Source: Catellatospora vulcania
GTDB lineage: Bacteria; Actinomycetota; Actinomycetes; Mycobacteriales; Micromonosporaceae
Assembly (NCBI RefSeq): GCF_009720385.1
Contig: NZ_WARX01000001.1
Span: 186,001-250,000, forward strand
Direction: 5' to 3'
Length of the DNA stretch: 64,000 nucleotides
Numbering within the stretch: position 1 is the stretch's first letter; the number at the start of each line of letters is the position of its first letter. The notes under the pieces were generated by a model. That model was not told the DNA's origin. It saw only the letters and a program-made list of their open reading frames with translations, and made no database searches. This document shows positions 4,368 through 47,533 of this stretch, piece by piece. The translations under genes and the position numbers were made by a program.

Positions 4368-4434
4368 GAAGATCGCTGTTTCGTGTCAGAAACTGTGGTC
4401 AGACCGCAGATCATGACCAGAAACAGCGATCTTC
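4368..4434. repeat. long inverted repeat with inner stem
   Basis: A perfect 15-bp arm GAAGATCGCTGTTTC (4368-4382) pairs with its complement at 4420-4434. Inside it, GGTCA (4397-4401) pairs with TGACC (4414-4418). The right arm runs into the 35-bp tandem repeats, whose units also carry GCGATC. Terminator or mobile palindrome are both possible. Confidence 0.65.
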
Positions 4435-4530
4435 GCCGACCCGAGACCTGCACCGGGGCGGCGATCAGCGCCGACCCGAGACCTGCACCGGGGCGGTGAT
4501 CAGCGCCGAGCCGAAGACCGTACCGGGGCG
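4426..4530. repeat. three 35-bp tandem direct repeats
   Basis: Units at 4426-4460, 4461-4495 and 4496-4530. The first two differ at two bases (GATCTTCGCC against GATCAGCGCC); the third is more diverged but keeps GATCAGCGCCGA and ACCGGGGCG. A fourth unit begins (GTGATCTTCG) and breaks off. The units abut without spacers, so this is a minisatellite-like array. Confidence 0.8.
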
Positions 4531-4718
4531 GTGATCTTCGCCCCCGGCGGCCGGGGCGGCGGGCGGCGTCTTCAGCACGAACGTGAACGGAACCGGTAGC
4601 GGCCCGGTCGACGCGACGACCCGCACACCCCGCTGCTCGAAGCCCCGAACATGCCGTGCCCGGTCACCGTGCGCAGTGGTCGGCGGCGGGCGGTCAGGCC
4701 GCCGCCGACCGCTGCTGG

Positions 4719-6776
4719 TCAGGCTGCCGCCGGTTCCGGTGCGGGCTCGGCCGCCGGTGCGACTGCCCGGGTGCGCCCCGCGACGAGGACCGCGCCGAGG
4801 GCCCACGGGATCCAGACGACCTCGGTCAGCACCCGCAGCAGGGCGGGGGAGACCGGCAGCCACGGGATCATGATCAGCCCGTGGTCGATCGCGCCGAGCA
4901 GCGCGAAGACGGCCACGATCAGCGTTGTCATGCCCAGCTTGCGGGCGTGGGTCTCCCGCAGCGCCAGGCCCAGCAGGGCGAAGCCCGCGCCGTACAGGGC
5001 GAGGCCGATCGGGTGCAGCACGCTGCCCATGTCGAGGGTGCCGAAGACGCCGACGGTCAAGCCGCCGACCGCCAGCAGCAGCCCGAGCATGGCGCGCTTG
5101 GAGTCGCGCAGGCGGCGGTAGTAGAGGCCGATCGCCAGCAGCCCGAGCACGATTGCGCCGCCGAACGCCCACTTGACCTCGATGCGCGCCAGCCCCGAGG
5201 CGGCGTACTCGCCGTACCAGTCGCAGTCGGAGGGCAGGTGCTGCCGTCCGCCGTCGTAGCCGGCGCAGGCGTACATCTTCAGGGTGGCGGCGGGCTCGCC
5301 GAGGTAGCGGTGGGAGCCGATGGCGGGCAGGTCGTCGTCGCCGCAGGCGGGCACAGTACGGATGTTCGTGTCGGACATGCCCGTCCAGCAGCTGCCGACG
5401 CCCTGCCCGTCCCACCAGAAGTTCAGCCCGTTGGGCTCGGACTCGCCCTTCTCGCTGACCCCCATCACGTTGTCGAGGTAGCGGTTGTGGTGCGAGGTGT
5501 CGAACTGCTGCGCGAACTCGGTGTCGTTGCGCACGAACCCGGGTACGAAGCTGGTCACGAACCCGGAGTACCGGTTGCCGTAGATGTGGTTGCCGCGCCA
5601 GATGTTGTAGTTGCCGCCCGGGTTGACCACGCCCGCGCCGACCGGCAGGCCGACCGCCGGGCACACCACGCCCTGCTCGTACCCGCGCTGCTCGAAGGGC
5701 TTCTTGCAGGTGCCGTCGACGATGTGCCGGTAGTAGTCGGTGTTGTTGTTCGCGATGACGTTGTTCTCGAACTTCGAGTGGTTCTGCGGCATGCCCGGGT
5801 GGTCGGGGAAGGCGCTGTCGGTGGCGATGCCCGCGGTGTTCTCGGTGAAGACGCTGTCGTGCACCCAGACCGAGTCACCGGCCGTGCCGGAGTAGCCCAG
5901 CGTGTTGTGGTGGCCGTAGCAGCGCTGGATCTCCACGGCGTAGCGCGGCACGTCGTGGCCCCGGTCCTTGTTGATGTTCGAGGCCGCGCCGGGGTAGAAG
6001 GCGGAGTCGCCGTTGCCGTAGCCCTCGCAGTCGGTGTAGAGGCCGTGGTCGACGGCGAAGGTGAGGAAGGCGTACTCGTCGTTCCAGCGGCCCATGGTCC
6101 GGTCGACCACGAAGCCGTCGGTCTCCATGATGTAGAAGGCGTTGAATTGGGCCCGCTGGGCGGACATGTTGCGGAAGTACACGCCGTCGGCGTTGTCGGC
6201 CCGGATCGCGTTGAGCTTCTTGTACTGCGCGTCGACGAGCACATCGGCCGGGTTCGCGCCGGTGCCCTCCAGCTGGAGGTTCTTCTTGCCGAGGATGGCC
6301 ACCAGATTGGCCAGGTGCGGGCAGGCGAGCTGCTGGTCCCAGGTGAGCACCGGGTAGCCGTAGATGCGGCCGCGTACCGCGCCGTTCTCCATGGCGGCGC
6401 ACTGGGGGCTGGCCGGGGCGATGCTCGGCTCCTCCAGGTACACCCCGGGCAGGATCTTGATGTTGGTGCCGGGCAGGTGGGCGGCGTCCACGGCCTGCTG
6501 GATGTGGCGGAACCCGTCGTTCTGGCACTGCGTCCACAGCTGCTCGTTCACGGCCTTGAGCTCGGCCGGGAAGGCGGCGATGCGGGTCGCGAAGTCGGCC
6601 GGGTCGGTCTTGCAGACCAGCAGGGTGGGCCCGGTGGTGCGGTAGACCGGGACGCTGCCGGTGCCGTCCAGCTCGCGGGTGGCCCGCTCCTCGTGCGCCG
6701 AGGCCGCGGTGGCCGGGCCGAGTATCGCTATCGCCGCCACGGCGACGATGCCGAGCAGACGTGTGTATGCCTTCAT
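4719..6776 (-). CDS. secreted right-handed beta-helix protein with C-terminal membrane domain
   Basis: A roughly 685-residue exported protein. MKAYTRLLGIVAVAAIAILG is a signal peptide with a likely cut after ASA near residue 27, which favours this ATG over a GTG 27 bases upstream. The middle (about 70-510) looks like a parallel beta-helix of the pectate-lyase superfold type: Asn/Gly-rich turns such as NHIYGNRYSG, NVIANNNTDYY and HHNRYLDNV, plus paired Cys. The last ~150 residues hold about five hydrophobic helices and an Ala/Pro tail, so the helix domain is probably displayed outside the membrane. No catalytic residues can be assigned. It is divergent from a sugar-type operon and may act on an external polysaccharide (inference). 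Confidence 0.75.
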   Translation of the reverse strand: MKAYTRLLGIVAVAAIAILGPATAASAHEERATRELDGTGSVPVYRTTGPTLLVCKTDPADFATRIAAFPAELKAVNEQLWTQCQNDGFRHIQQAVDAAHLPGTNIKILPGVYLEEPSIAPASPQCAAMENGAVRGRIYGYPVLTWDQQLACPHLANLVAILGKKNLQLEGTGANPADVLVDAQYKKLNAIRADNADGVYFRNMSAQRAQFNAFYIMETDGFVVDRTMGRWNDEYAFLTFAVDHGLYTDCEGYGNGDSAFYPGAASNINKDRGHDVPRYAVEIQRCYGHHNTLGYSGTAGDSVWVHDSVFTENTAGIATDSAFPDHPGMPQNHSKFENNVIANNNTDYYRHIVDGTCKKPFEQRGYEQGVVCPAVGLPVGAGVVNPGGNYNIWRGNHIYGNRYSGFVTSFVPGFVRNDTEFAQQFDTSHHNRYLDNVMGVSEKGESEPNGLNFWWDGQGVGSCWTGMSDTNIRTVPACGDDDLPAIGSHRYLGEPAATLKMYACAGYDGGRQHLPSDCDWYGEYAASGLARIEVKWAFGGAIVLGLLAIGLYYRRLRDSKRAMLGLLLAVGGLTVGVFGTLDMGSVLHPIGLALYGAGFALLGLALRETHARKLGMTTLIVAVFALLGAIDHGLIMIPWLPVSPALLRVLTEVVWIPWALGAVLVAGRTRAVAPAAEPAPEPAAA

Positions 6777-6785
6777 GGCGGCGGA

Positions 6786-6893
6786 GCCTAGAGAAGGTTT
6801 CACGTTCGCACCAGACCCGTCGGCGCGACACGCTGCCGTTCATCTGTCCGGGTGGCGAGCCTGGTGCGAACATGAAAAGTTCTCTAAACTCCG
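6786..6893. promoter_or_regulatory. symmetric divergent promoter/operator region
   Basis: The left half (6786-6813) contains CTAGAGAA, TTTCAC and GTTCGCACCAG; the right half (6862-6892) contains CTGGTGCGAAC, ATGAAA and TTCTCTA in mirror order. The two roughly 28-base arms are near-perfect complements around a centre close to 6839, one facing the beta-helix gene and one the MFS operon. This suggests one regulator controlling both directions, or paired identical promoters. No regulator gene lies adjacent. Confidence 0.6.
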
Positions 6894-6929
6894 CGCGACG
6901 GGAATCACACCTGGCCCGAGGGACCCCCC

Positions 6930-8219
6930 ATGACCGAACCGGCCACGCTCACTACGGCTGACCCCGCAACGCCCCCGCCCGCTCCGTTCGCCGAGCCGCA
7001 ACGGCCGGTCACCGGCCGCTGGATCAGCCTGTTCGCACTGGCCTGGCTGGGCATCTGGATGGCGCAGCTGACCCCCGTGCAGCTGCTGCTGCCGATCCAG
7101 GTCGAGGCGCAGCTCAAAGCCGCGGACTGGGTCGACAACGTGGTCGCCTTCGGCATCGTGTCCGGCATCGCCGGCGCGTTCGCGCTGATCGCGTACCCGC
7201 TGACCGGCGCTCTCTCGGACCGCACGGTGTCGCGGCTCGGCCGCCGCCGTCCCTGGATCATCTTCGGCGCGCTGCTGTTCGCCGCCTCGCTGGTGGTGCT
7301 CGGCCTGCAGGACGACATCGTCGGCATCGGCGTGTGGTGGACGCTGACCCTGGTCGGCTTCTGCGTGCTGACCGCGGCCCTCACCGCCACCATCTCCGAC
7401 CAGGTTCCGGTCGGCCAGCGCGGGTACGTCTCCGGCTGGATCTCCGCCCCGCAGGCGATCGGCACCATCCTCGGCATCGTGCTGGTCACCGAGCTGGCGC
7501 TGAGCCAGGTCATCGGCTACTCCCTGATGGCCGGGCTGCTCGTGCTGCTGGTGCTGCCGTTCGTGCTCGGCGCGCCCGACGAGGTGCTGCCGCGCTCGGC
7601 CCGGCCGCCGTTCAGCTTCCGCGACCTGGCCGCCGGGTTCTGGATCAGCCCGCGCCGCTACCCCGACTTCGGCTGGACGCTGCTCAGTCGCATCCTGGTC
7701 AACGTCGGCAACGCGCTGGGCACCACGCTGCTGCTCTTTTTCCTGATGTACCACGTCAAGGTCGAGAAGGCCGAGGACGCGCTGCTCGTCCTGACGCTGA
7801 TCTACATGCTGTTCGTGGTGCTGGCCGCGCTGTTCCTCGGCCGGCTGTCGGACCGCATCGGACGGCGCAAGGTCTTCGTTCTCGTCTCGTCGGGGTTGCA
7901 GGGCGTCGCCGCCGTGCTGCTGGCGTTCTTCCCGACCCTGACCGTGGCCACGATCGGCGCGGGCCTGCTCGGCCTGGGCTACGGCTGCTTCCTGTCGGTG
8001 GACCAGGCGCTGGCCACCCAGGTGCTGCCGGACCCGGCGGCCCGCGGCAAGGACCTCGGCATCATGAACATCGCCACCGCGGTGCCGCAGGCGATGGCCC
8101 CGCTGCTCGGCGCGTTCGTCGTCGCGCAGCTGGGCGGCTTCGGGCCGTTGTACGTGGCGTCCGGTGTGATCTCGGTGCTCGGCGCGCTCGCCGTGCTGCC
8201 GGTGAAGGGAGTGCGCTGA
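6930..8219 (+). CDS. MFS transporter
   Basis: A 429-residue major facilitator protein with about 12 membrane helices after a Pro-rich 30-residue cytoplasmic start. The loop 2-3 motif is GALSDRTVSRLGRRRPW (93-109) and its second-half copy is GRLSDRIGRRKVF. The organisation resembles sugar/cation symporter-type MFS proteins, but the substrate is not evident. It is first in a tightly overlapping operon (TGATG overlap with the next gene) that ends with a glycosidase, so uptake of a glycoside or sugar acid is plausible (inference). Confidence 0.88.
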   Translation: MTEPATLTTADPATPPPAPFAEPQRPVTGRWISLFALAWLGIWMAQLTPVQLLLPIQVEAQLKAADWVDNVVAFGIVSGIAGAFALIAYPLTGALSDRTVSRLGRRRPWIIFGALLFAASLVVLGLQDDIVGIGVWWTLTLVGFCVLTAALTATISDQVPVGQRGYVSGWISAPQAIGTILGIVLVTELALSQVIGYSLMAGLLVLLVLPFVLGAPDEVLPRSARPPFSFRDLAAGFWISPRRYPDFGWTLLSRILVNVGNALGTTLLLFFLMYHVKVEKAEDALLVLTLIYMLFVVLAALFLGRLSDRIGRRKVFVLVSSGLQGVAAVLLAFFPTLTVATIGAGLLGLGYGCFLSVDQALATQVLPDPAARGKDLGIMNIATAVPQAMAPLLGAFVVAQLGGFGPLYVASGVISVLGALAVLPVKGVR

Positions 8220-13310: not shown

Positions 13311-14117
13311 ATGACTTCTGAACTTGATCCCAACGCCCTGCTGAGCGCGTACGACGAGCAACTGCGCACCGAGATCCCCGACCCCCTGCCCGCGGGCATG
13401 GTCGTCGAATGGGACGGCCCGGTGGTCCGGATGAGCGGCCTCGACCGCGGCGGATTCGTCACCTATCGCGACGTGTCCCACCTGAGCGGCCCCGACCTCG
13501 ACGCGCTGATCGCCCGCCAGCGCGACTACTTCGCCGCTCGCGGCGAGGAGGTCGAGTGGAAGCTGCGCGGCCATGACCTGCCCGCCGACCTGCCGGACCG
13601 GCTGGTCGCGGCCGGGTTCGCGCCCAACGAGCTGGAGACGGTGATCATCGGCCTGGCCGAGCCGCTGGCCAAGGCCCCGGTGCTGCCGGACGGGGTGACG
13701 CTGCGCGAGGTGACCTCGCGAGACGACCTGGAGCGGATCGCGGCCATGGAGGAGGCGGTCTGGCAGGAGGACCGCAGCCACCTGGTGCACGGCCTGGCCA
13801 AGGAGCTGGACGCCGATCCGCAGGGGCTGACGATCGTGGTCGCCGAGGCGGGTGGCGAGGTGGTCTGCGCCGGGTGGATCCGGTACGAGAAGGGCACCGA
13901 CTTCGCGGGGCTGTGGGGCGGGTCCACGCTGGAGCAGTGGCGGGGGCGGGGGATCTACAAGGCGATGGTGGCGCACCGGGCGATCCGTGCGGTGGCGCGC
14001 GGGTTCAGGTATTTGCAGGTGGACGCGTCGGCGGACAGTCGGCCGATTTTGGAGCGGCTCGGGATGGTCGCGGTGACGACGACTACTCCGTACATCTGGA
14101 AGCCGCCGGCTGCGTAA
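13311..14117 (+). CDS. GNAT family N-acetyltransferase
   Basis: A 268-residue protein. The C-terminal half (about 120-260) is a GNAT domain: VAEAGGEVVCAGWI for the central strands, then LEQWRGRGIYKAMVAHR as acetyl-CoA motif A (Q/R-x-x-G-x-G/A type) and SADSRPILERLGM. The N-terminal ~110 residues are family-specific and contain an LSGPDLDALIARQ segment. Substrate unknown. It shares a short divergent promoter with the YidH operon and ends at a family-B palindrome. Confidence 0.85.
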   Translation: MTSELDPNALLSAYDEQLRTEIPDPLPAGMVVEWDGPVVRMSGLDRGGFVTYRDVSHLSGPDLDALIARQRDYFAARGEEVEWKLRGHDLPADLPDRLVAAGFAPNELETVIIGLAEPLAKAPVLPDGVTLREVTSRDDLERIAAMEEAVWQEDRSHLVHGLAKELDADPQGLTIVVAEAGGEVVCAGWIRYEKGTDFAGLWGGSTLEQWRGRGIYKAMVAHRAIRAVARGFRYLQVDASADSRPILERLGMVAVTTTTPYIWKPPAA

Positions 14118-14154: not shown

Positions 14155-14219
14155 ATAGACGTTGGCCTATCTGGATGAGTTCGATCGCCGAAAAGTCATC
14201 CAGATAGGCCAACGTCTAT
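14155..14219. repeat. family-B 65-bp palindrome, copy 1
   Basis: A perfect 24-bp stem: arms 14155-14178 and 14196-14219, each with ATAGACGTTGGCCTAT or its complement at the base. The 17-nt loop is GTTCGATCGCCGAAAAG. It lies between two convergent genes. Three other copies (20.2, 34.1 and 42.3 kb) share the base and loop but differ in the inner eight stem pairs. Confidence 0.85.
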
Positions 14220-16523: not shown

Positions 16524-17687
16524 ATGGCCTACCTTGATCATGCGGCGACCACGCCGATGCTGCCCGAGGCGCTCGACGCCTATGTCGCGACCGCGCGTGA
16601 GGTCGGCAACGCCTCGTCGTTGCACGGCCCGGGCCGTGCTGCCCGCCGCCGGGTGGAGGAGTCGCGCGAGCGCATCGCGGCGGTACTGGGCGCACGGCCA
16701 TCCGAAGTGATCTTCACCGGTGGCGGCACCGAGAGCGACAACCTCGCGATCAAGGGCATCTACTGGGCTCGCCGCCCCGATGGCCGGACCAAGGTGCTGA
16801 CCGGCGCCGTCGAGCACCATGCGGTGCTGGATGCGGTGCACTGGCTGGGCCAGCACGAGGGCGCCGAGGTGGTCTCGCTGCCGGTCGACCACGAGGGCCG
16901 GGTGCGGCCCGACGTGCTGGCCGAGGCGCTGGACGACACGGTCGCGCTGGTCACCGTCATGTGGGCCAACAACGAGGTCGGGACCGTCCAGCCGATCGCC
17001 GAACTGGCCGCGCTGGCCGCCGCGCGCGGGGTGCCGCTGCACACCGACGCCGTCCAGGCCGTCGGCCAGGTGCCGGTCGACTACGCCGCGAGCGGTGTCG
17101 CCGCGCTCACCCTCACCGGGCACAAGCTGGGCGGGCCGCTCGGCGTCGGCGCACTGGTACTGGGCCGCGACGTGGCCTGCACCCCGCTGCTGCACGGCGG
17201 CGGCCAGGAACGCGACGTGCGCTCCGGGACCCTCGACGTGCCCGGCATCGTCTCCTTCGCGTTCGCCGTCGAGCACGCCGTCAAGCACCAGGAGCAGCAC
17301 TCGCAGCGGCTCGCCGCGCTGCGCGACGAGCTGGTGGAGCGGGTACGCGCGGTGGTCCCCGACGCGGTCCTCAACGGCGCGCCCACCGGGCAGCCCGGCT
17401 CCCGCCTGCCCGGCAACGCGCACTTCAGCTTCCCCGGCTGCGAGGGCGACGCCCTGCTGTTGCTGCTCGACGCCCAGGACATCGCCGTCTCCACCGGCTC
17501 GGCCTGCTCCGCCGGCGTCGCCCAGCCCTCCCACGTGCTCCTGGAGATGGGCGCCGACCCCCTCTCCGCCCGCTCCTCCCTGCGCTTCACCCTCGGCCAC
17601 ACCAGCACCCGCGCCGACCTCGACGCCCTCATCACGGCCCTGCCCCCCGCCGTGGACCGCGCCCGCCGCGCCGGCATGTCCCGCTGA
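16524..17687 (+). CDS. iscS: cysteine desulfurase (NifS/IscS family)
   Basis: A 387-residue PLP enzyme that moves sulfur from cysteine to acceptor proteins. It starts [11 protein letters not shown], has the PLP lysine Lys201 in [11 protein letters not shown] and the persulfide-forming Cys328 in [14 protein letters not shown]-type placement of Cys, [10 protein letters not shown] and [12 protein letters not shown] are typical. The neighbouring mnmA needs a persulfide donor, so supply of sulfur for tRNA thiolation is the likely main job, as for the mycobacterial iscS-mnmA pair; Fe-S assembly is an alternative. Confidence 0.93.
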
Positions 17688-17710
17688 CCCACCCCTCCCG
17701 CGCCTCACCG

Positions 17711-17870
17711 CGTTGATCATGAACTTATGGCAAGGCTCAGCGGTGTGTCGTGTCCACAACCTCATGATCACCCGGGTGGTACGGGCGCGCCGGCTCGCGA
17801 TACCCAGAAGTGATCATGAACTTGTGGCGATGACACGCCGTCGACCCGTGCCATAAGTTCATGATCAACG
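17711..17870. repeat. family-C composite palindrome, copy 1
   Basis: The outer arms (17711-17732 and 17849-17870) are 22 bp and exactly complementary. Inside lie imperfect inner arms, so nearly 60 bases on each side can pair around a ~40-base centre. Four versions of TGATCATGAACTTATGG occur in alternating orientation. A second copy lies at 45.44 kb. It fills the gap between the cysteine desulfurase gene and mnmA. Confidence 0.85.
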
Positions 17871-17901
17871 GGGGAAAGTGGTGGGCGGGTAGGCTGTCGG
17901 G

Positions 17902-19153: not shown

Positions 19154-20194
19154 ATGAGCATGCCTGACGAGACCACGATCATTCCCGCGCAGCCGCTGTG
19201 GCCCGCCGGATCGGCGACGGGCATCGGCTCGCTGCCGGGCACCGACATCGCCGAGGCGGTCAAGTTCACCCTCGGCGAGCTGCCGGACCTGCCGTACCTG
19301 CCGGAACTGCCCGGCCGCGGGCCCGGCGCGGACATGATCGGCCGCAGCGCCGGGTTCCTGGTCGAGCTGCCGGTGGAGATCTACGCGGGCCGGTGGCGGG
19401 TCGCCGCCAGTGCGGGCCGGGAGCTTCGCCGGGCGTACGACCTGCGCGAGCGCGACCTGGACCAGCTCACCGAGCAGGCCGAGGGCTTCACCGGGACGCT
19501 GAAGGTGCAGTCGGCCGGGCCGTGGACGCTGGCCGCCAACATCGAGCTGGCCCTGGGCGAGGCGCTGGTATCCGACCACGGCGCGACCCGGGACCTGGCC
19601 GCGTCGCTCGCCGAAGGGCTCAAGACGCACGTGGCCGACGTGCGCCGCCGGGTGCCGGGTGCGCAGGTGCTGCTCCAGCTCGACGAGCCGTCGCTGCCCG
19701 CGGTGCTGGCCGGGCGGGTGCGCACCGCCAGCACCCTGCACACGTACCGCTCGGTGGCGCCGGCGACCGTTCGGGACACGCTCACCTCGGTGATCGAGGC
19801 GGCGGGGGTGCCGGTGATCGTGCACTGCTGCGCGCCCGAAGCCCCGCTGGCACTGCTGCGGGAGGCCGGGGCGTCCGGGCTCGCGCTGGACCTGGACCTG
19901 GTCGGCACCGGCGCGGAGAAGATCGACGCGATCGGTGAGCTGATCGACGCCGGGCTGGGCCTGTTCGCGGGCGTGGCACGCACGACGCCCGCGGCGAATG
20001 GGCGGCAGCCCGACGCCGCCGCGCTGGCCGAGCGGATCAAGCGGCTGTGGCGGGACCTCGGGTTCGCCGAGGACCTGCTGGCGCAGCGGGTGGTGGTCAC
20101 GCCGTCGTGCGGCCTGGCGGGCGCGTCGCCCGCGTACGCCAAGGCGGTCCTGGAGGCGTGCCGCGAAGCCGGCCGCCGCCTCATCGAACAGTGA
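19154..20194 (+). CDS. MetE C-terminal-like (cobalamin-independent methionine synthase) protein
   Basis: A 346-residue single-barrel protein resembling the catalytic half of MetE. A zinc site is visible: His224 and Cys226 in VIVHCCA and Cys319 in VTPSCGLAG; QLDEPSLPAVL matches the substrate-binding segment, and GSLPGTD begins the barrel. It lacks the N-terminal MetE domain. A single-domain protein of this type lies beside ligA in mycobacteria. It may transfer methyl groups from a donor other than polyglutamyl methyltetrahydrofolate; the donor is unknown. Two ATGs six bases apart are both possible starts. The 172-base leader shows no riboswitch I can recognise. Confidence 0.82.
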   Translation: MSMPDETTIIPAQPLWPAGSATGIGSLPGTDIAEAVKFTLGELPDLPYLPELPGRGPGADMIGRSAGFLVELPVEIYAGRWRVAASAGRELRRAYDLRERDLDQLTEQAEGFTGTLKVQSAGPWTLAANIELALGEALVSDHGATRDLAASLAEGLKTHVADVRRRVPGAQVLLQLDEPSLPAVLAGRVRTASTLHTYRSVAPATVRDTLTSVIEAAGVPVIVHCCAPEAPLALLREAGASGLALDLDLVGTGAEKIDAIGELIDAGLGLFAGVARTTPAANGRQPDAAALAERIKRLWRDLGFAEDLLAQRVVVTPSCGLAGASPAYAKAVLEACREAGRRLIEQ

Positions 20195-20221: not shown

Positions 20222-20286
20222 ATAGACGTTGGCCTATCCGGATGAGTTCGATCTTCGAATAATCATCCAGATAGGCCAACCTCTAT
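20222..20286. repeat. family-B 65-bp palindrome, copy 2
   Basis: Arms 20222-20245 and 20263-20286 pair with two imperfect positions; the loop is GTTCGATCTTCGAATAA. It lies between the 3' ends of the MetE-like gene and the HxlR gene, 27 bases after the plus-strand stop. Confidence 0.85.
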
Positions 20287-20339: not shown

Positions 20340-20993
20340 TCAGGGCGCGGGCGGGCCGGGGTGGCGCAGGACCTGGAAGGCGTGGGTCAGCAGGGCGGGG
20401 TCGCCGGTGGTGGTGAGGGTGTCGGCGGCGGGTGGGCAACCGCGGGTCAGGCCGTCGAAGGTGGCCAGGTCGCAGGTCACGGTGAGGTCGGCGGGGGTGG
20501 GCGCGGGGCCTGAGCGGGCGTACGCCGTGCCGTCGTCGGCGACGACGTGGAAGACCTCGTCGCCGACCTGGAACTGGTAGGTCTCGTGCAGGCCGCGGGA
20601 GTCCTCCGGCGCGCTGTGTTCGGTCAGGTAGAGCGCGATGAGCTCGGCGCGCAGCGTGGCGGGGTCGACGTCGTCGTCCATCGGCAGCCGGGATCCCCAG
20701 GCCGCCAGCTCGGCCAGCAGCGGCCGCAGCCGCTCGCCGTAGGCGGTCAGCTCGTAGGCGCGCACGTCCGCGGCGGCGGGCAGCGCGCGGCGCGCCACGA
20801 CCCCGCTGTGCTCCAGCAGTTGCAGCCGCTCGGCGAGGCGGTTGGTGCCCATCGCGGGTAGCCGGGCCAGGAGTTCCTTGAACCGCTTCGGGCCGAGCAG
20901 CAGCTCGCGCACGATGAGAAGGGTCCACCGCTCACCGAGCACGTCGAGTGAGCGGGCGATCGGGCACACCTGGCCGTACATCCGCTTGGGCAT
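20340..20993 (-). CDS. HxlR family transcriptional regulator with C-terminal SCP2-like domain
   Basis: A 217-residue protein. The N-terminal winged helix (about 5-100) has CPIARSLDVLGERWTLLIVR and GPKRFKELLARLPAMGTNRL, typical of HxlR/MarR-like DNA-binding proteins including the N-terminal Cys10. The C-terminal ~90 residues (QFQVGDEVFHVVADDG to the end) resemble the SCP2 sterol-carrier fold that some actinobacterial HxlR proteins carry as a ligand domain. It is divergent from an SDR gene, and two dyads in the shared promoter are its likely operators. Confidence 0.85.
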   Translation of the reverse strand: MPKRMYGQVCPIARSLDVLGERWTLLIVRELLLGPKRFKELLARLPAMGTNRLAERLQLLEHSGVVARRALPAAADVRAYELTAYGERLRPLLAELAAWGSRLPMDDDVDPATLRAELIALYLTEHSAPEDSRGLHETYQFQVGDEVFHVVADDGTAYARSGPAPTPADLTVTCDLATFDGLTRGCPPAADTLTTTGDPALLTHAFQVLRHPGPPAP

Positions 20994-29400: not shown

Positions 29401-29500
29401 CGGCCAACCGCTGCCGCTTGGGCCGACCGCTTGCGGCTCCGGCCACCCGCTCTCGGCTCCGGCCACCCGCTTGTGGCTCCCGCCACCCGCGCTCGGGTCC
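29401..29500. repeat. five degenerate 20-bp tandem repeats
   Basis: Units begin at 29401, 29421, 29441, 29461 and 29481, with consensus GGCCACCCGCTTGCGGCTCC. The third and fourth differ at three bases. This is the first half of the 337-base gap between the GGDEF-EAL gene and gatC, which also holds a palindrome; the rest (29564-29722) probably contains the gatC promoter. Confidence 0.75.
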
Positions 29501-32610: not shown

Positions 32611-34107
32611 ATGAGCACCAACGTGCTGCCCACCTACGACGACGTCATCTCGCGGTACGAGCCGGTCATCGGCCTGGAGACGCACGTCGAGCTGGGCACG
32701 GTCACCAAGATGTTCTGCGGCTGCCCGACCGACTTCGGCGGCGAGCCGAACACCCAGGTGTGCCCCGTCTGCCTGGGTCTGCCCGGCAGCCTCCCGGTGG
32801 CCAACCGCGCCGCGATCGAGGCGACCATCCGCATCGGGCTCGCGCTGAACTGCTCGATCGCCACCTGGTGCCGCTTCGCCCGCAAGAACTACTTCTACCC
32901 GGACATGCCGAAGAACTTCCAGATCAGCCAGTACGACGAGCCGCTGTGCACCGACGGCTACCTCGACGTCGAGATCGACGGCGAGACCGTGCGCATCGGC
33001 ATCGAGCGCGTGCACCTGGAGGAGGACACCGGCAAGACGCTGCACGTCGGCGGCGCCACCGGGCGCATCCACGGCGCGACCGAGTCGCTGGTCGACTACA
33101 ACCGGGCCGGCATCCCGCTCGTCGAGATCGTCACCAAGCCGGTGCCCGGCCTCGGCGCGCGCGCCCCCGAGATCGCCAAGGCGTACGTCGCCGAGCTGCG
33201 CGACATGATCCGCACGCTCGGCGTCTCCGACGTGCGCATGGAGCAGGGCTCGATGCGCTGCGACGTGAACACCTCGCTGAACCTGCCCGGCGCGGAGTGG
33301 GGCACCCGCACCGAGACCAAGAACGTCAACTCGCTGCGCAGCGTCGAGCGCGCGGTGCGCTCGGAGATGCTGCGCCAGGCCATGGTCCTCGACGGCGGCG
33401 GCGCCATCACCCAGGAGACCCGGCACTTCCACGAGGACACCGGCGACACCACGTCCGGCCGGTCCAAGGAGACCGCGACCGACTACCGCTACTTCCCCGA
33501 GCCCGACCTGGTGCCGCTCGCGCCCGAGCCGGCGTGGGTGGCCAAGCTCAAGGCCGCGCTGCCGGAGCTGCCGAGCGCGCACCGGGCCCGGCTGAAGACC
33601 GACTGGAACCTGTCCGACCTGGACATGCAGTCCATCCTCAACGCGGGCGCGGTCAGCCTGATCGAGCGCACCGTCGCCGCGGGCGCGTCGCCGGAGGCGG
33701 CCCGCAAGTGGTGGCTGGGCGAGCTGTCGCGCCGCGCCAACGCCGAGGGCGTCGAGCTGGAGGCCGTCGGCGCCACCCCGGAGCAGGTCGCGAAGCTGCA
33801 GGTGATGGTCGAGTCGGGCAAGCTGACCGACAAGCTGGCCCGCCAGGTGCTGGAGGGCGTGCTGGCCGGCGAGGGCGACCCGGAGCAGATCATGGCCGCC
33901 CGTGGGCTGGAGGTCGTCTCCGACACCGGTGCGCTGACCGCCGCCATCGACGAGGCCATCGCCGCCAACCCCGCGGTCGCCGAGAAGATCCGCGGCGGCA
34001 ACCAGGCCGCCGCCGGTGTCATCATCGGCGCGGTCATGAAGACCACCAAGGGCCAGGCCGACGCCAAGACCGTCCGCGAACTGGTCCTGGCCCGCCTGGC
34101 TAGCTGA
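32611..34107 (+). CDS. gatB: Asp/Glu-tRNA amidotransferase subunit B
   Basis: A 498-residue subunit that binds tRNA and phosphorylates the misacylated Glu or Asp before amidation. ETHVEL, the zinc cysteines in [10 protein letters not shown] and CPVCLGLPG, and [15 protein letters not shown] are diagnostic. The helical and YqeY-like C-terminal domains (about 300-498) are complete. GGAG stands eight bases before the ATG. It is separated from gatCA by the aquaporin gene and has its own promoter; a family-B palindrome follows. Confidence 0.97.
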
Positions 34108-34144
34108 CCGGTCCGCCGGTCACGCGGGACGCCCTGCCTTTTCC

Positions 34145-34209
34145 ATAGACGCTGGCCTATTACATCGAGTTCGATCTTCGAATAATCGATGTAATAGGCC
34201 AGCGTCTAT
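34145..34209. repeat. family-B 65-bp palindrome, copy 3
   Basis: A perfect 24-bp stem (34145-34168 and 34186-34209) with loop GTTCGATCTTCGAATAA. Its inner stem half TACATCGA is different from the other copies but is matched by TCGATGTA on the other arm. TTTTT follows the right arm. It lies between the convergent gatB and metallophosphoesterase genes. Confidence 0.88.
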
Positions 34210-34274
34210 TTTTGGCGGGTGGGGTCGCCGCGGGGAGGTCGCCTCAGGCTGAGGGCAGGCTGAGGGTCAGCGGG

Positions 34275-35858
34275 TCAGCGGGTGCGGGAGGGGGTCGGGC
34301 GGGGCGACGTGCCCGGGGCGGCTGACTGGCCCGGTGGGGTGTCGTCGACGACGTGGCGCGACAGGGCGACCTCGGCCAGGCCGGTGCCGCCGACGGTGAT
34401 GTCGTCGTACGCCATCAGCGCCCGGTTGTCGTCGAAGTAGAGCACCGACATCGTCAGCGGCGTGGGCGTCTCGCCCTCCAGTCCGCGCAGCCCGGCCCCG
34501 CCGGTCGAACCCTGCACCATGAGCATGGTCTGGTCGTCGCCCAGCTTGCTGATCTCCCGGTGGTGCCGGTGCCCGGCCAGCACCAGCGGGGTGTACCCGG
34601 CCAGCGGCCCCGCGGACATCGGATCGTGCACCAGCGCCAGGTCGACGACCTCGTCCCGCTGCTTGGCTATGGTGTCGGCGAGCTGGTCCCCGACGTCGAT
34701 GACCCGTTCGACGGTCTGCTTCGAGTCGCCGGAGCCCGCCGGTTCCAGCCCCTTGTCGGGGGTGAAGCGCGGGTCGCCGATCCCGGCGATGCTCAGCCCG
34801 GCCACCCGTACCACCTTGTCGTCCAGCACGATCGCGTTCGGCTGGGCGGCGACAGCGGCCTGGGTCACGGCCGAGTCGTGGTTGCCGCGCACGAAGACGT
34901 ACGGCACCTTCAGCAGCGAGATCGACGCCACGAACGCCTTCTCCGGCTCGCTGCCCCAGTCGGTGATGTCGCCGGTGTCGACGACGACGTCGATGTGGAA
35001 GTTGTCCACCACGGTCCGGATCACGCCCCACGCGGCCGGGTTCAGGTGCAGGTCGGAGACGTGCAGCACGCGCAGCGTGTTGTCCTCGGGGGAGTAGACG
35101 GGAAGGTTCTGCACCGTGGCGTAGAGGCTGCCCACGTTCTGCACCAGCTTCTGCAGCTGGGCTGCGTACTCGTCGTACCGGTCGGCGATGCGCTGCGCGT
35201 TGCCGAGCACCGACGGCGCGTTGGCCAGCAGCCCCTCGTACCGCGGCTCGCGCAGCGCACCCGGGTTGAAGGTGCCGAACGCCGATCCGAACGCCGCCGC
35301 CATGATCGTGAGTGCGAGCCCGCCCGCCCAGGCGACCCGGCGCATCCGCCGGTACACCAGCGCGGACAGCAGCATCGCGCCGAGCACCGCGACCGCGGTG
35401 GCGCGCAGCACCAGCCGGGTGACCCCGGCGCGCACGTCGTCGACGGCGGTGCGGCTGGCCGCGGTGATGCCCGCCGGGTCGGTGATCAGCGCCTCGGTGC
35501 GGGCGCGGTCGAGCGCGTCCAGCCGCACCATCAGCCGGGCGGGGCCGTCGTGGCTGTCGAGCTGCAGTGAACCCAGCGGCGGCAGGATGATCTCGGTGTC
35601 GCCGTACCACGACGGGGTGACCGCCATCGTCGACCGGAACGGGCCGACGTCGACGCTGGTGCCGGCGGCCAGGTAGAGGCCGAGCGCGAGCCCGGTCAGC
35701 GACACGGCGAGCAGCCCGAGCGCGGAGCCGAACCGACGCCACGGCACCCGGCCGAACGCGTCCCACACCTGCACGGCACGCCCGCGCGGGGGCTCGCCGC
35801 CAGACCGGTCTGCCCCGCTGCGGCTCAGCGGCCGTGCCCACCGCGGCAACCGAGTCAT
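34275..35858 (-). CDS. membrane metallophosphoesterase
   Basis: A 527-residue protein with one membrane helix near 47-67 and two more near 158-205, then a calcineurin-like phosphoesterase domain (about 265-510). All metal-binding motifs are present: HVSDLHLN, DTGDITDWG, VRGNHDS and LAGHRHHRE. The segment between the first helices (about 70-155) is probably outside the cell; the domain's side of the membrane depends on topology. Substrate unknown. It ends toward gatB across a family-B palindrome, and its start lies 21 bases from the next gene's stop, so both minus-strand genes may be co-transcribed. Confidence 0.87.
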   Translation of the reverse strand: MTRLPRWARPLSRSGADRSGGEPPRGRAVQVWDAFGRVPWRRFGSALGLLAVSLTGLALGLYLAAGTSVDVGPFRSTMAVTPSWYGDTEIILPPLGSLQLDSHDGPARLMVRLDALDRARTEALITDPAGITAASRTAVDDVRAGVTRLVLRATAVAVLGAMLLSALVYRRMRRVAWAGGLALTIMAAAFGSAFGTFNPGALREPRYEGLLANAPSVLGNAQRIADRYDEYAAQLQKLVQNVGSLYATVQNLPVYSPEDNTLRVLHVSDLHLNPAAWGVIRTVVDNFHIDVVVDTGDITDWGSEPEKAFVASISLLKVPYVFVRGNHDSAVTQAAVAAQPNAIVLDDKVVRVAGLSIAGIGDPRFTPDKGLEPAGSGDSKQTVERVIDVGDQLADTIAKQRDEVVDLALVHDPMSAGPLAGYTPLVLAGHRHHREISKLGDDQTMLMVQGSTGGAGLRGLEGETPTPLTMSVLYFDDNRALMAYDDITVGGTGLAEVALSRHVVDDTPPGQSAAPGTSPRPTPSRTR

Positions 35859-40533: not shown

Positions 40534-41619
40534 ATGACCGTTCTGCTGCTCATAGGCACAGCGAAAGGGCTGTTCCTGGCCCGCCGGGACCGGGTCGGGG
40601 ACGCCTGGCAGATGTCGGTGCCGCAATTCCCGATGACCGGGGTGTACGCCGTGGGCGTCGACACCCGCCGCGCCACGCCCCGCCTGCTGGCGGCCGTCGA
40701 CAGCTCGCACTTCGGCCCGAGCGTGGCCACCAGCGACGACCTGGGCGCCTGCTGGCGCGAGCCGGACCACGCCCCGCTGGCGTTCCCGCGCGAGACCGAT
40801 ACGGCGCTGACCAGGGTGTGGGCGCTGCAGCCGGGCTCGGCCGCCGAGCCGGACGTGGTCTGGGCGGGCACGCAGCCGTCCGCGCTGTTCCGCTCGACCA
40901 ACGGCGGCCTGACCTACGAGCTGGTCCGCAGCCTGTGGGACCACCCGCACCGCACCGAGTGGGGCGAGGGCTTCGGCGGCCAGGCCATCCACACGATCCT
41001 GCCGCACCCGGCCGATCCGCAGCGGGTGCTGGTGGCGATGTCCACCGGCGGCGTGTATCGGACCACCGACGGCGGGCAGACCTGGCACCCGTCCAACAGC
41101 GGCATCAAGGTGACCTTCAGCCCCGACGCGTTCCCGGAGTTCGGCCAGTGCGTGCACAAGGTCGCCCGCGACGGCGAGGACCCCGAGCGGCTGTACCTGC
41201 AGAACCACCACGGGGTGTACCGCTCCGACGACGACGGCCAGACCTGGTCCTCGATCGCGGACAGCCTGCCCAGCGACTTCGGCTTCGCGATGGTGGCGCA
41301 CCCGCGCCGCGGCGGCACCGCCTGGAACTTCCCGATCACCGCCGACGCGCTGCGCTTCCCGGTCGAGAACAAGTGCCGGGTCTTCCGCACCAGCGACGCG
41401 GGCAAGACCTGGACCCCGCAGTCGTACGGGCTGCCCACCGCCCCGTTCTACCCGTCGGTGCTGCGTGACGCCATGTGCGCCGACGACAACGACCCGGTCG
41501 GCGTCTACTTCGGCAGCCGCACCGGCGAGGTGTTCGCCAGCGCCGACGAGGGTGACAGCTGGGCGCTGGTCGCGGCGCACCTGCCCGACGTGCTGTGTGT
41601 ACGGGCGGTCCGGATCTGA
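40534..41619 (+). CDS. BNR/Asp-box repeat (sialidase-like) propeller protein
   Basis: A 361-residue cytoplasmic beta-propeller. Five Asp-box motifs are visible: STNGGLTYE, TTDGGQTWH, SDDDGQTWS, TSDAGKTWT and SADEGDSWA. There is no signal peptide, and the sialidase catalytic Arg triad is not evident, so glycosidase activity is doubtful. It overlaps by one base (TGATG) with a gene encoding a MoaD/ThiS domain. In actinomycetes this propeller type is often followed by a small ubiquitin-like protein, which suggests a functional pair (recalled, not searched). Confidence 0.83.
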   Translation: MTVLLLIGTAKGLFLARRDRVGDAWQMSVPQFPMTGVYAVGVDTRRATPRLLAAVDSSHFGPSVATSDDLGACWREPDHAPLAFPRETDTALTRVWALQPGSAAEPDVVWAGTQPSALFRSTNGGLTYELVRSLWDHPHRTEWGEGFGGQAIHTILPHPADPQRVLVAMSTGGVYRTTDGGQTWHPSNSGIKVTFSPDAFPEFGQCVHKVARDGEDPERLYLQNHHGVYRSDDDGQTWSSIADSLPSDFGFAMVAHPRRGGTAWNFPITADALRFPVENKCRVFRTSDAGKTWTPQSYGLPTAPFYPSVLRDAMCADDNDPVGVYFGSRTGEVFASADEGDSWALVAAHLPDVLCVRAVRI

Positions 41620-42305
41620 TGGTCACGGTGCTGGTGCCGGGGGCGCTGCGGACCGAGGTCGGCGGCGAGTCCAAACTTGAGGTACAGGCGGACGGCACGC
41701 TGCGTGCGGTGCTGGACGAGGTCGATCAGCGCTGGCCCCGGCTGGGCCGGCGCATCCGCGACGAGCGGGGCGAGCTGCGCCGCTACGTCAACGTGTACGT
41801 GGATGGGGAGGACTGCCGGATGCTGTCGGGTCAGGACACGCCGGTCGCCGGCGGCGGCGAGGTGCAGGTGCTGCCCAGTGTCGCGGGCGGCAGCGTGGAG
41901 CAGGACGCGCCCGCGCTCGACGGGGACCGGACCCTCGCCGAGAACTTCGCCCCGTGGGTGCTGGAGCTGGGGTTGACCGTGCAGGAGACGGGTCCGGACT
42001 GGGCCACGTTGCGGCTGCCCTGGTCGGACCGGCTGGCCCGGGAGGGCGGGGCGCTGAGCGGGCAGGCGCTGATGGCGGCCGCGGACACCGCGACGGTGAT
42101 CGCGGTCAGCGCGGCTCGGGGCGGCTTCGTGCCGATGACCACGGTGCAGCTGTCGACGACGTTCCAGCGGCCGGTGCTCGGCAGCGACGTGCTGGTCACG
42201 GCCCGGCTGACCAAGCTCGGCCGTACCATGGCCTTCGCCGACATCACGATGACCGCCAAGGGTGTGCTCGTGGCCCACGCAACCACGGTTTACGCCCTGC
42301 TCTGA
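41619..42305 (+). CDS. MoaD/ThiS sulfur-carrier-like domain fused to PaaI-type hotdog thioesterase
   Basis: A 228-residue two-domain protein. Residues 1-91 form a beta-grasp domain ending VQVLPSVAGG, with Gly90-Gly91 exactly where free MoaD/ThiS proteins stop. It runs without a stop into residues 92-228, a hotdog fold with GGALSGQALMAAADTATVIA and TTVQLSTTFQRPV, like PaaI/YbgC-type acyl-CoA thioesterases. A GTG at 41895 just after the Gly-Gly could start the thioesterase separately. As read, the diGly is internal and would need cleavage before adenylation. A fusion by loss of a stop is an alternative to a genuine two-domain protein. Confidence 0.8.
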   Translation: MVTVLVPGALRTEVGGESKLEVQADGTLRAVLDEVDQRWPRLGRRIRDERGELRRYVNVYVDGEDCRMLSGQDTPVAGGGEVQVLPSVAGGSVEQDAPALDGDRTLAENFAPWVLELGLTVQETGPDWATLRLPWSDRLAREGGALSGQALMAAADTATVIAVSAARGGFVPMTTVQLSTTFQRPVLGSDVLVTARLTKLGRTMAFADITMTAKGVLVAHATTVYALL

Positions 42306-42335: not shown

Positions 42336-42400
42336 ATCGACGTTGGCCTATCTGATCGAGCCCGATCTTCGAAAACTCGATCAGATAGGCCAACGTTTAT
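42336..42400. repeat. family-B 65-bp palindrome, copy 4
   Basis: Arms 42336-42359 and 42377-42400; the outermost bases pair imperfectly but the inner 20 are exact. The loop is GCCCGATCTTCGAAAAC. Inner half-stem CTGATCGA is matched on the other arm. It lies between the fusion gene and a convergent minus-strand gene. Confidence 0.86.
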
Positions 42401-42434: not shown

Positions 42435-42986
42435 TCAGGTGAGGTCGGACCAGAAGGGGACCTGTCTGGTGGAGGCGCTGCCGAGGGTGGGGTCGGTGCG
42501 GGGCAGATCGAACTCATGGTGCAGGTAGGCGGGCAGGGTGTCGCCGTACACGATGACGTCGGTCTGCATGACCGAGAAGACGGGTAGGTCGGTCTCGGGG
42601 AGCGCGGGGGCGTAGCGGTGGCCGTACACGGGGACGAGCTGCGGGACCTGCACGAGCATGCGCCGGGCGACGGCCAGGGCGAAGGCGGTGCGTGACGGCC
42701 GGTCGCCCCACGCGGCCAGCCAGAACCCGTTCTCCTGCACGTCGAACAGCACCCCGTCGACGGGAGCCGCGAGCAGTTCGCGCAGGCGGTCCGGGTCGCC
42801 GTCGCGCCAGTCCGGCCAGCGCTCGCCGACCGGCAGCCCGGCGGTGAGCAGGGCGCGGTGATCGGGGTTGAAGACGAACCCGAAGCGGCTTGCCAGGCCG
42901 GCGAACTCGGCCGCGCTCAGCGGGTCGGCGACCTGGGCCGGCAGCGCCGCCAGCAGCTCGCGGGCGTACGCCGCGGACAGGGTCAT
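42435..42986 (-). CDS. SMI1/KNR4 (SUKH)-like hypothetical protein
   Basis: A 183-residue soluble protein. FGFVFNPDHRALLTAGLPVG (about 35-54) and the later VFSVMQTDVIVYGDTLPAYL resemble the SMI1/KNR4-type fold found in many actinobacterial proteins and toxin-immunity families. FDVQENGFWLAAWGDRP lies between. No toxin gene is adjacent. The fold call is tentative. It follows the LacI gene on the same strand, with 16 bases between, and may be in its operon. Confidence 0.65.
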   Translation of the reverse strand: MTLSAAYARELLAALPAQVADPLSAAEFAGLASRFGFVFNPDHRALLTAGLPVGERWPDWRDGDPDRLRELLAAPVDGVLFDVQENGFWLAAWGDRPSRTAFALAVARRMLVQVPQLVPVYGHRYAPALPETDLPVFSVMQTDVIVYGDTLPAYLHHEFDLPRTDPTLGSASTRQVPFWSDLT

Positions 42987-45366: not shown

Positions 45367-45438
45367 GGCGTCACTCCTATTGCTCGGTGCCACCCGATCC
45401 TATGCCGCCCATGATCACCAGCCCCAGGCCCCTTCCCG

Positions 45439-45580
45439 GGTTGATCATGAACTTATGGCACGGCTCACCGGCGTGTCCCCGGCACAACCTCATGATCACC
45501 GGCTCGCGCCGCCCAGGAGGTGATCATGAAGTTGTGGACATGACACGCCGTCGAGCCGTGCCATAAGTTCATGATCAACC
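45439..45580. repeat. family-C composite palindrome, copy 2
   Basis: Outer arms (45439-45466 and 45553-45580) are 28 bp and perfectly complementary; inner arms continue the pairing with few mismatches to about 62 bases per side around an 18-base centre. The same TGATCATGAACTT module appears four times in alternating orientation. It shares most of its length with copy 1 at 17.7 kb. Confidence 0.88.
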
Positions 45581-45598
45581 CAAGCGAATGGGCCTGGG

Positions 45599-45688: not shown

Positions 45689-47533
45689 CTACGGGACTCG
45701 GCGGTAGGCGCCGTCGCTGGCGCTCGTGGCCATCGAGGCGTACGCCCGGAGGGCTGCGCTGACGGGGCGCTGCCGGTCGGCCGGGGTGTACGGTTTTTCC
45801 CGCTTGTCCTGAACGATACGCCTCTCCGCGAGCACCTGCTCGGGGACCTCCAGGACCATCGATCGGGCCGGGATGTCGATGGCGATGGTGTCGCCGTTCT
45901 CGACCAGCGCGATCAGGCCGCCGCCGGCCGCCTCGGGCGAGACGTGCCCGATGGACAGGCCGCTGGTGCCGCCGGAGAAACGCCCGTCGGTGATCAGCGC
46001 GCAGGCCTTGCCCAGGCCCCGGCCCTTGAGGAACGAGGTCGGGTAGAGCATCTCCTGCATGCCGGGGCCGCCGCGCGGGCCCTCGTACCGGATGACGACC
46101 ACGTCGCCGGCCACGATCTCGCCGCCGAGGATGGCGGTGACCGCGTCGTCCTGCGACTCGAACACCTTCGCCGGGCCGGTGAAGCGCAGGTTCTCCTCGG
46201 AGACGCCCGCGGTCTTCACGACCGCGCCGTCCGGGGCCAGGTTGCCGAAGAGGATGGCCAGGCCGCCGTCGGCGGAGTACGCGTGCGCCAGGTCCCGGAT
46301 GCAGCCGTTGGCCGCGTCGGTGTCCAGCGTGGACCACACGTTCTCGGTGCTGAACGGCTGCGTGGTGCGCACCCCGCCGGGCGCGGCGTGGAACAGCCGC
46401 TCCGCCTCGGGCAGCGTCGCGCCGCTGCGGATGTCCCAATCGGACAGCCAGCCGGCCAGGTCCGGCGAGTGCACCGCGTGCACGCCGGTGTGCAGCAGCC
46501 CGGCCCGGTTCAGCTCGCCCAGCAGGGCGGGGATGCCACCGGCCCGGTGCACGTCCTCCATGTGGTACTGCTGGCTGTTCGGTGCGACCTTGGCCAGGCA
46601 CGGCACCCGCCGCGAGATGGCGTCGATGTCGCCGACGCTGAAGTCCATCTCGGCCTCGCGGGCCGCGGCCAGCAGGTGCAGGATCGTGTTGGTCGAGCCG
46701 CCCATGGCGACGTCGAGCGCGACCGCGTTCTCGAACGCCTCGCGGCTGGCGACGGCCCGGGGGAGCACGGAGGCGTCGTCGCCGTCGTAGTAGCGCTTGC
46801 ACAGGTCCACGATCAGCGTGCCGGCCTGCTCGAACAGCGCCTTGCGGGCGGCGTGGGTGGCCAGCGTGGAGCCGTTGCCCGGCAGGGCCAGGCCGATCGC
46901 CTCGGTGAGGCAGTTCATCGAGTTCGCGGTGAACATGCCGGAGCAAGAGCCGCAGGTCGGGCAGGCGGACCGCTCGATCTGGCCGAGCTGCTCGTCGCTG
47001 ACCGCGTCGTTGGAGGCCGCGATCATCGCGTCGATGAGGTCGAGCTTGGTGTGCACGACGCCCTCGACGGCGACCGTCTTGCCGGCCTCCATCGGGCCGC
47101 CGGAGACGAACACGGTGGGGATGTTGAGGCGCAGTGCGGCCAGCAGCATGCCGGGCGTGATCTTGTCGCAATTGGAGATGCAGACCAGCGCGTCGGCGCA
47201 GTGCGCGTTCACCATGTACTCGACCGCGTCGGCGATCAGCTCGCGGCTGGGCAGCGAGTAGAGCATGCCGCCGTGGCCCATGGCGATGCCGTCGTCTACG
47301 GCGATGGTGTTGAACTCGCGGCCGACACCGCCGGCCTCGGCGATCGCGTCGGAGACCAGACCCCCGAGATCCTTGAGGTGTACGTGCCCCGGCACGAACT
47401 GGGTGTAGCTGTTGGCGACGGCGATGATCGGCTTGCCGAAGTCGCTGTCGGTCATACCGGTGGCACGCCACAGCGCGCGGGCGCCGGCCATGGTGCGACC
47501 GTGAGTGGAGGTGCGGGAACGCAGCTCGGGCAT
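45689..47533 (-). CDS. ilvD: dihydroxy-acid dehydratase
   Basis: A 614-residue Fe-S enzyme making 2-oxoisovalerate and 2-oxo-3-methylvalerate, the third step of valine/isoleucine synthesis. Cluster cysteines are in SNCDKITPG and [31 protein letters not shown] and the C-terminal [19 protein letters not shown] are diagnostic. No Shine-Dalgarno site is seen before the ATG, so translation may be from a leaderless or poorly led transcript. It is divergent from a GGDEF-EAL gene. Confidence 0.96.

Follow-up and report, generated by a model that had tools for sequence, protein, structure and literature searches.

Four 65-bp hairpins lie at gene ends in the window, i.e. in the whole 64-kb stretch of Catellatospora vulcania DNA which was analysed here (Table 1). 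All four have 24-bp arms and a 17-nt loop as stated in the original prediction; its quotations of the four inner octamers and of the loop in copies 2 and 3 also were correct. The flanking genes are ordinary: gatB, a metallophosphoesterase-like gene, an HxlR regulator and genes of ThiS/thioesterase-like, electron-transfer flavoprotein and methionine-synthase-like type. Two flanking genes had no family match. Genes were called by a codon-usage script which may miss small genes; a small gene on the reverse strand might be facing copy 1, which was counted as tandem.

Table 1. Hairpin copies in the window and the flanks of copy 3.
Feature	Position	Strand	Parts	Context or source
Copy 1	14155-14219		arms 14155-14178 and 14196-14219, loop 14179-14195; inner stem CTGGATGA	37 bp past stop of 13311-14117 (+); next called gene 14672 (+); called tandem
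Copy 2	20222-20286		arms 20222-20245 and 20263-20286, loop 20246-20262; inner stem CCGGATGA/CTGGATGA, two mispairs	convergent: 19154-20194 (+) and 20340-20993 (-, HxlR-type)
Copy 3	34145-34209		arms 34145-34168 and 34186-34209, loop 34169-34185; inner stem TACATCGA	convergent: gatB 32611-34107 (+) and metallophosphoesterase-like gene 34275-35774 (-)
Copy 4	42336-42400		arms 42336-42359 and 42377-42400, loop 42360-42376; inner stem CTGATCGA, two outer mispairs	convergent: 41619-42305 (+) and 42435-42986 (-)
Copy 3, left flank	34134-34144	+	family consensus CCCCGCTTTTC, reads towards element; degenerate at 34145 copy	flank profiles
Copy 3, right flank	34210-34220	+	family consensus GAAAAGCGGGG, reads away from element; 34145 copy has TTTTGGCGGGT	flank profiles

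Copies 1 and 3 are fully paired over 24 positions; copy 2 has mismatches at pairs 6 and 18, copy 4 at pairs 3 and 4. The single mispair previously ascribed to copy 2 is correct for the inner eight pairs; over all 24 pairs there are two. The small stem inside the loop, also noted before, is common (formed in 77.5% of cells over 30 copies), but not general. Folded as RNA together with their flanks, four of five strands (both of 34145, the + strands of the other copies) reached -52.1 to -58.5 kcal/mol and copy 2 reached -49.2 kcal/mol, with z-scores of -8.3 to -12.7 against 200 shuffles. The two-arm pattern had 575 forward matches in 11 Catellatospora genomes and none when read backwards. Because the fold z-scores are extreme and the backwards control was empty, the hairpin family is not a product of chance.

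The base of the stem consists of 16 bp which are nearly locked in sequence; the inner stem varies, yet is mostly paired. Among 73 copies from the own genome pairs 10, 12 and 13 are invariant, pairs 11 and 16 vary once each, and at pair 15 two copies have G-C in place of the A-T of the other 71, a two-sided change. Pairs 18-22 have two or more Watson-Crick states each, e.g. G-C in 36 and A-T in 30 copies at pair 20, and T-A in 36 and C-G in 31 at pair 22. The final pair-state counts used all 205 copies, in which the arms of the added copies are partly selected: pair 19 is C-G in 94, G-C in 65 and A-T in 25, and pair 22 is C-G in 109, T-A in 51, G-C in 13 and A-T in 7. The copy finder required GGCCTAT and ATAGGCC with at most two changes each; thus, part of the arm conservation stems from the search itself. 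In named genomes copies were taken with exact arms at 33 nt, in G006 with exact arms at 18-48 nt.

The arm distance was counted from exact-arm pairs and also from single-arm matches. It was 33 nt in 550/575 exact-arm pairs even though 18-48 nt were allowed, and in G005, G008 and G009 222 of 235 arm pairs had this distance without being selected for it. Of 127 single-arm matches 100 were listed; 88 of these make 44 pairs (33 nt apart in 41), 8 are known copies with a mismatched other arm and 4 stand alone, compared with 2 in the backwards control. The length is 65 nt in 70/73 own-genome copies. Most copies of strain KI3 and C. tritici, chosen for the 33-nt distance, have an interior of a different type, e.g. 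CTAGAGGAC. The copies average 46% GC in a window with 71.5% GC.

Distribution in the genus and position behind genes

A DNA search of the own genome gave 44 matches on both strands. A covariance model built from 30 copies, the kind of search which the original prediction had proposed for this genome and its relatives, gave 146 matches which correspond to at least 73 loci. The model matched all 11 Catellatospora genomes; exact-arm copies numbered 1-113 per genome. The search covered 60 relatives and the own genome. Among 26 other genomes of the bacterial family one matched weakly (69% complete), and none of 24 other genomes of the order matched. The weak locus in G015, an incomplete genome of another genus (31 bits), and a weaker one in G033 (E = 0.007) were not counted as family members. 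In a scan of named genomes Catellatospora alone, with five named species and strain KI3, accounted for the 80 loci listed of 111, which does not imply absence elsewhere. Viral contigs contained no exact match, plasmids none by blastn. Rfam had no match above the gathering threshold in the 64-kb window; twelve matches at 34145, eleven to microRNA hairpin models and one to an sRNA model, were all far below it. Spread by local duplication was rejected as inner stems were not more similar between neighbours within 60 kb (36 pairs, 0.667 versus 0.643, p = 0.28).

A set of 176 rows was reduced to 171 after dropping two in-gene false matches and three members of another palindrome family; gene context was determined for an enlarged set of 205 copies. 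Flanks and T-runs were counted in 167 copies; flank and permutation tests used 200 copies (65 nt, with full flanks where needed). Of the 205 copies 129 are located between convergent and 67 between tandem genes, 4 are divergent, 4 are at locus edges and one is inside a called gene. The own genome has 48 convergent, 24 tandem and one divergent copy and none in a gene. For comparison, gaps of at least 80 bp in the window are 20 tandem, 8 divergent and 6 convergent; gaps of at least 100 bp in copy-bearing loci, element gaps included, are 382 tandem, 200 divergent and 144 convergent. Where both neighbours were called (201 copies), 200 copies are extragenic and 196 lie behind a gene. Tandem copies start a median 43 nt past the upstream stop and are closer to the stop than to the next start in 60/67 cases. 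The loop of tandem copies was in sense orientation to transcription in 38/59 copies by a first rule and in 31/48 by a stricter one (p = 0.06).

Interchange at orthologous junctions

The regions of the window are syntenic among relatives, and the same junctions were compared in the 11 genomes. Behind gatB, the site of copy 3, the hairpin family is present in six (G000, G001, G004, G006, G009, G010); G002, G003 and G007 have a AAGGAAGGGCACCTTC hairpin, and G005 and G008 nearly no spacer. The 14155 site carries the hairpin family in G000, G001, G004, G006 and G010, a TGATCATGAACTTATGG palindrome in G003, a GCAGTTTCGGGG palindrome in G005, G008 and G009 and almost no spacer in G002 and G007. At the 42336 site the family was found in G000, G001, G004 and G010, elsewhere other repeats or short gaps, with a long gap in G002; at 20222 it was found in the own genome only. 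The inner-stem type and the direction of the loop change between species at the same site. Some orthologous convergent gaps have no palindrome at all, so that a given junction can do without the hairpin.

In gaps of 40-450 nt of the 11 syntenic windows strong inverted repeats were present in 43/69 convergent, 55/228 tandem and 1/93 divergent gaps; shuffled gaps had 0/138, 2/456 and 0/186, respectively. Because strong repeats fill convergent gaps far above shuffles, several long-palindrome families share one niche. Convergent gaps under 40 nt made up 29/101. A second family with facing GCAGTTTCGGGGAAAGTGC arms (searched at 10-36 nt) had 62 members in G008, 56 in G009, 14 in G005 and 0-4 in the other eight genomes; it is abundant in the lineage of C. 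tritici and KI3. Nearly all listed copies have a variable 22-nt interior. Locked arms, fixed size and variable interior therefore are not peculiar to one family.

Further repeats were noted. Paired palindromes with TGATCATGAACTTATGG-type arms are located in the window at 17688-17893, directly behind a called stop at 17687, and at 45438-45581, on the other strand at the 3' side of 45689-47491; the same family occurs at other junctions in relatives. A third palindrome family with CAACTTGCCGGGCAATCGGGCGTATC-type arms and 61 bp was seen in G008, G005 and C. tritici (L148 3485, L152 10497, L210 6533). In the syntenic regions of G003, G006, G007 and G010 the convergent gap near 5500-7000 contains palindromes of 46-52 nt, the arms of which have ATCTGGATG, ATCTAGATG or similar sequences. 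These resemble the inner stem of the 65-bp hairpins, and palindromes may exchange modules. At L088 1990-2663 (G000:C8:10889-11562) two hairpin copies about 545 bp from each other, their loops identical in sequence but opposite in direction, surround a broken gene which resembles the DUF559 or AbiEi type. A 50-nt imperfect inverted repeat between divergent genes (window 6781-6894) is unlike the 3'-end palindromes, and short direct repeats with periods of 35 and 20 bp are at 4428-4542 and 29416-29495.

Pairing and covariation of the stem

The original prediction proposed selection on pairing rather than on sequence. The family is structured and dispersed, as stated there, and its covariation is real. 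Over 30 copies 93.2% of cells were paired and 13 of 28 pairs had changes on both sides. The covariation score of 0.223 was higher than in any of 500 shuffles (mean 0.105) or any slid version; the number of further pair types was reached by 4/500 shuffles. In 200 copies inner pairs 17-24 were Watson-Crick in 89.6% of cells compared with 60.4 ± 1.4% when the 3' halves were permuted. The excess was large in the own genome (92.1 versus 67.2% permuted) and in C. methionotrophica (96.4 versus 65.0%), moderate in KI3 (82.1 versus 66.2%), small in C. coxensis (86.0 versus 81.4 ± 1.2%, 49 copies) and within noise in C. tritici (80.6 versus 78.1 ± 3.1%, 9 copies). In C. coxensis, which has half-and-half inner stems, the situation which according to the original prediction would speak against structural selection is partly realised. 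A two-sided change in place was seen at the junction behind 13311-14117, where G004 has G-C at pair 8 and other copies have mostly T-A or C-G.

The outer 16 bp are nearly locked in sequence, however, so that there is a constraint on sequence as well. In 67 tandem copies the transcribed strands had GU and AC mismatches at about equal frequency (33:27, p = 0.52). This near-equality gives no sign of selection for pairing at the RNA level; it excludes only a strong GU preference. Compensatory changes are known to arise by template switching (PMC8794818), and template switching between the arms of a hairpin can yield them by mutation alone. Because of this and of the GU/AC counts, the data bear out only in part that pairing rather than sequence is selected. 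Pairing in the drifting inner stem may be maintained by selection, by template-switch correction between the arms, or by both. In general, covariation in a bacterial palindrome is by itself no proof of a functional RNA. The family is suited to address whether compensatory change in hairpins needs selection or comes from template switching: it offers hundreds of copies with near-locked arms and a drifting, paired interior, and occupied as well as empty versions of the same junction in sister species.

Proposed transcript ends, rival readings and known systems

The flanks occur in the order CCCCGCTTTTC, element, GAAAAGCGGGG, i.e. a T-run precedes the hairpin and an A-run follows, the reverse of a bidirectional intrinsic terminator. 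Only 1/265 transcribed strands had a T-run of at least 4 in the 12 nt after the hairpin (0/55 tandem, 1/210 convergent). When both strands of 196 convergent and tandem copies from the enlarged set were counted, the + strand of 34145 was again the only one, with TTTT directly behind the hairpin. Judged by its sequence, this copy could act as an ordinary terminator in one direction. An extension of the stem into the flanks was ruled out: left and right flanks pair less than permuted ones (0.414 versus 0.463 ± 0.009; 11 positions, 200 copies).

From both sides, the leader between stop and element is rich in C and poor in G on the transcribed strand (C 0.534, G 0.292; 219 linkers, last 11 nt left out). 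Regions 3' of genes without the element had C 0.406 and G 0.344 when convergent, and C 0.375 and G 0.334 when tandem. The approaching strand 41-120 nt away, which is mostly coding, had C 0.42-0.48 and G 0.27-0.31, a comparison without a coding control in which the C excess is not leader-specific. A C-rich leader alone does not show use of Rho. Rho is present in 11/11 Catellatospora genomes. A second Rho-like gene (L317 5952-7271, G000:C19) was seen in 9/11. These nine have 7 or more 33-nt-spaced copies of the hairpin; in the two with one copy each, G002 and G007, it was not found. As G002 and G007 are sisters, the split is one event. Two Rho matches were also present in 9/26 other genera of the bacterial family, which had no element match at E ≤ 0.001. 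A link between the second Rho-like gene and the hairpin family is a lead only.

Position, symmetry, strength, absence of a U-tract, C-rich leader and interchange with other palindromes fit a U-less bidirectional 3'-end hairpin. Tentatively, and with a confidence that stays just short of even, we read the elements as bidirectional transcript-end hairpins without U-tract, perhaps helped by Rho, which form a genus-level REP-like palindrome family. RNA polymerase arriving from either side would first transcribe about 40 nt of leader, rich in C and poor in G, followed by the same hairpin of about 50 kcal/mol, usually without a U-tract. The hairpin would pause the polymerase and thus lead to termination, either U-less (I-shaped) or aided by Rho. 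It would also block 3'-to-5' exonucleases so that the 3' end of the transcript would be marked and protected in both directions, and it may limit antisense read-through into the facing gene. Points against a transcript-end hairpin are its dispensability at single junctions and the C excess beyond the leader. Further, selection for RNA pairing predicts more GU than AC mismatches, contrary to the counts above, and a generic terminator or exonuclease block needs neither a strict arm sequence nor a strict distance of 33 nt. U-less 3'-end hairpins have been described for Streptomyces (PMC8269248, PMC12207403), and in Streptomyces clavuligerus U-lacking structured 3' ends are the larger structured class, 353 versus 182 (PMC8269248). 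The family also gives access to the question of how transcription of convergent genes stops without U-tracts in GC-rich actinobacteria.

A very stable hairpin behind the stops of facing genes at once recalls the canonical bidirectional intrinsic terminator, a hairpin with a U-tract on both strands, and the TTTT behind 34145 (+) agrees with it. As a general rule this is highly improbable and refuted by the U-tract counts, 34145 (+) being a possible exception; the outward GAAAAGCGGGG flanks place the T-run before and the A-run behind the hairpin. A generic terminator scan flagged none of the four hairpins, which is a weak test as its loop limit is 3-8 nt. A short palindrome which is or once was mobile (MITE- or REP-like), lacks a host function and uses gene ends as harmless sites would agree with copy numbers from 1 to 113 between species of one genus, with the switching of sites between this family, other families and no spacer, and with the two copies of identical loop sequence which face each other around the broken gene of L088. 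Published REP families are also found mainly between convergent or unidirectional ORFs (PMC3733652). Nevertheless, we consider mobility without function rather unlikely. Direct repeats of at least 5 flank 0/200 copies (at k = 4 there were 2 versus 0.6 expected), and the arms hardly ever stand alone, which indicates that they are not the ends of a larger element. No match to a Y1 (RAYT/IS200) transposase, the only transposase family searched, was found in the own genome, G002, G005, G008 and G009, which hold 1 to 113 exact-arm copies, and the searches of viral contigs (exact match) and plasmids (blastn) were empty. Further, strong repeats of several families fill 62% of convergent versus 24% of tandem gaps, suggesting a niche and not the insertion habit of one element.

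Possibly the element acts as DNA: inverted 16-bp arms at a fixed distance would bind a protein, or a cruciform would extrude where convergent transcription piles up supercoils. Near-locked arms around a changing interior, the constant 33 nt, the missing GU excess and the low GC content of the copies within a GC-rich window are in line with such a site, and REP elements are reported to bind gyrase. On the other hand, a plain binding site needs no paired interior, and the pattern is one of 3' ends, as merely 4 of 205 copies are divergent and 1 is in a gene. A DNA-level site appears unlikely. More speculative and quite unlikely is a scheme of interchangeable transcript-boundary palindromes of 60-65 bp. 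Here, families with locked arms would be read by a factor which gauges a constant spacing of the arms (33 nt, or 22 nt as in nearly all listed GCAGTTTCGGGGAAAGTGC copies), the interior mainly would have to pair and would be renewed by template switching, and families would replace each other at the same convergent junctions. The second Rho-like protein could belong to such a system.

How do the transcript-end hairpins proposed here relate to described systems? The size and the position 3' of genes are similar to integron attC sites, which have conserved ends and a variable palindromic centre. The end motifs of attC are RYYYAAC...GTTRRRY. Such a site was dismissed because the arms lack these motifs in the required order, the stems are near-perfect and most copies are singletons at unrelated genes. 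Compared with MITEs, there were no flanking direct repeats of at least 5 in 200 copies, and merely 4 of 100 listed arm matches were alone. The best-ranked open-licence literature on Micromonosporaceae and Streptomyces palindromes contained no description of the family, which does not imply novelty. In the portions available, PMC12306157 lists three Actinomycetota, none from the bacterial family of Catellatospora, and the main text of PMC2267715 mentions neither Streptomyces nor Actinobacteria by name.

The earlier statement that the element matches no described class is correct insofar as the defining tags of REPs are lacking; its position and the lack of a U-tract are shared with them. In the broad sense of dispersed extragenic palindromes the family qualifies as REPs, with at least 73 loci, 200/201 copies extragenic and 196/201 behind a gene. 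REPs of the GTAG and CGTC superfamilies likewise are dispersed palindromes near stops, mainly at convergent or unidirectional genes, with many copies and species-variable numbers (PMC3733652). An unpaired GTAG or CGTC tag was absent at the flank consensus CCCCGCTTTTC / GAAAAGCGGGG, GACG/CGTC being inside the paired base. The size also differs from the REP range (stem 5-13 bp, element 20-40 bp): the stem has 24 bp in an element of 65 bp (70/73 copies), compared with 5-13 bp in GTAG or 8-9 bp in CGTC REPs (PMC3733652). In addition, and unlike these REPs (PMC3733652), the hairpins are mostly singletons, not dimers, and have a near-fixed arm distance and a variable, paired interior. PF01797, the RAYT domain, had 0 matches in the own genome, G002, G005, G008 and G009 and 1-3 matches in 6/11 genomes of the genus; a RAYT-mobilised REP was rejected since the own genome had no Y1 transposase match. 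CGTC REPs are also without a dedicated transposase (PMC3733652).

The highly structured, U-lacking transcript ends of Streptomyces (HS-U-lack TEPs, I-shaped terminators) are defined by RNA 3'-end data and, in the sections at hand, are not described as one repeat family (PMC8269248), whereas the Catellatospora hairpin is known from its sequence. Both have in common a stable stem without U-tract in a GC-rich actinobacterium, and bidirectional ends have been described for Streptomyces as well (PMC8269248).
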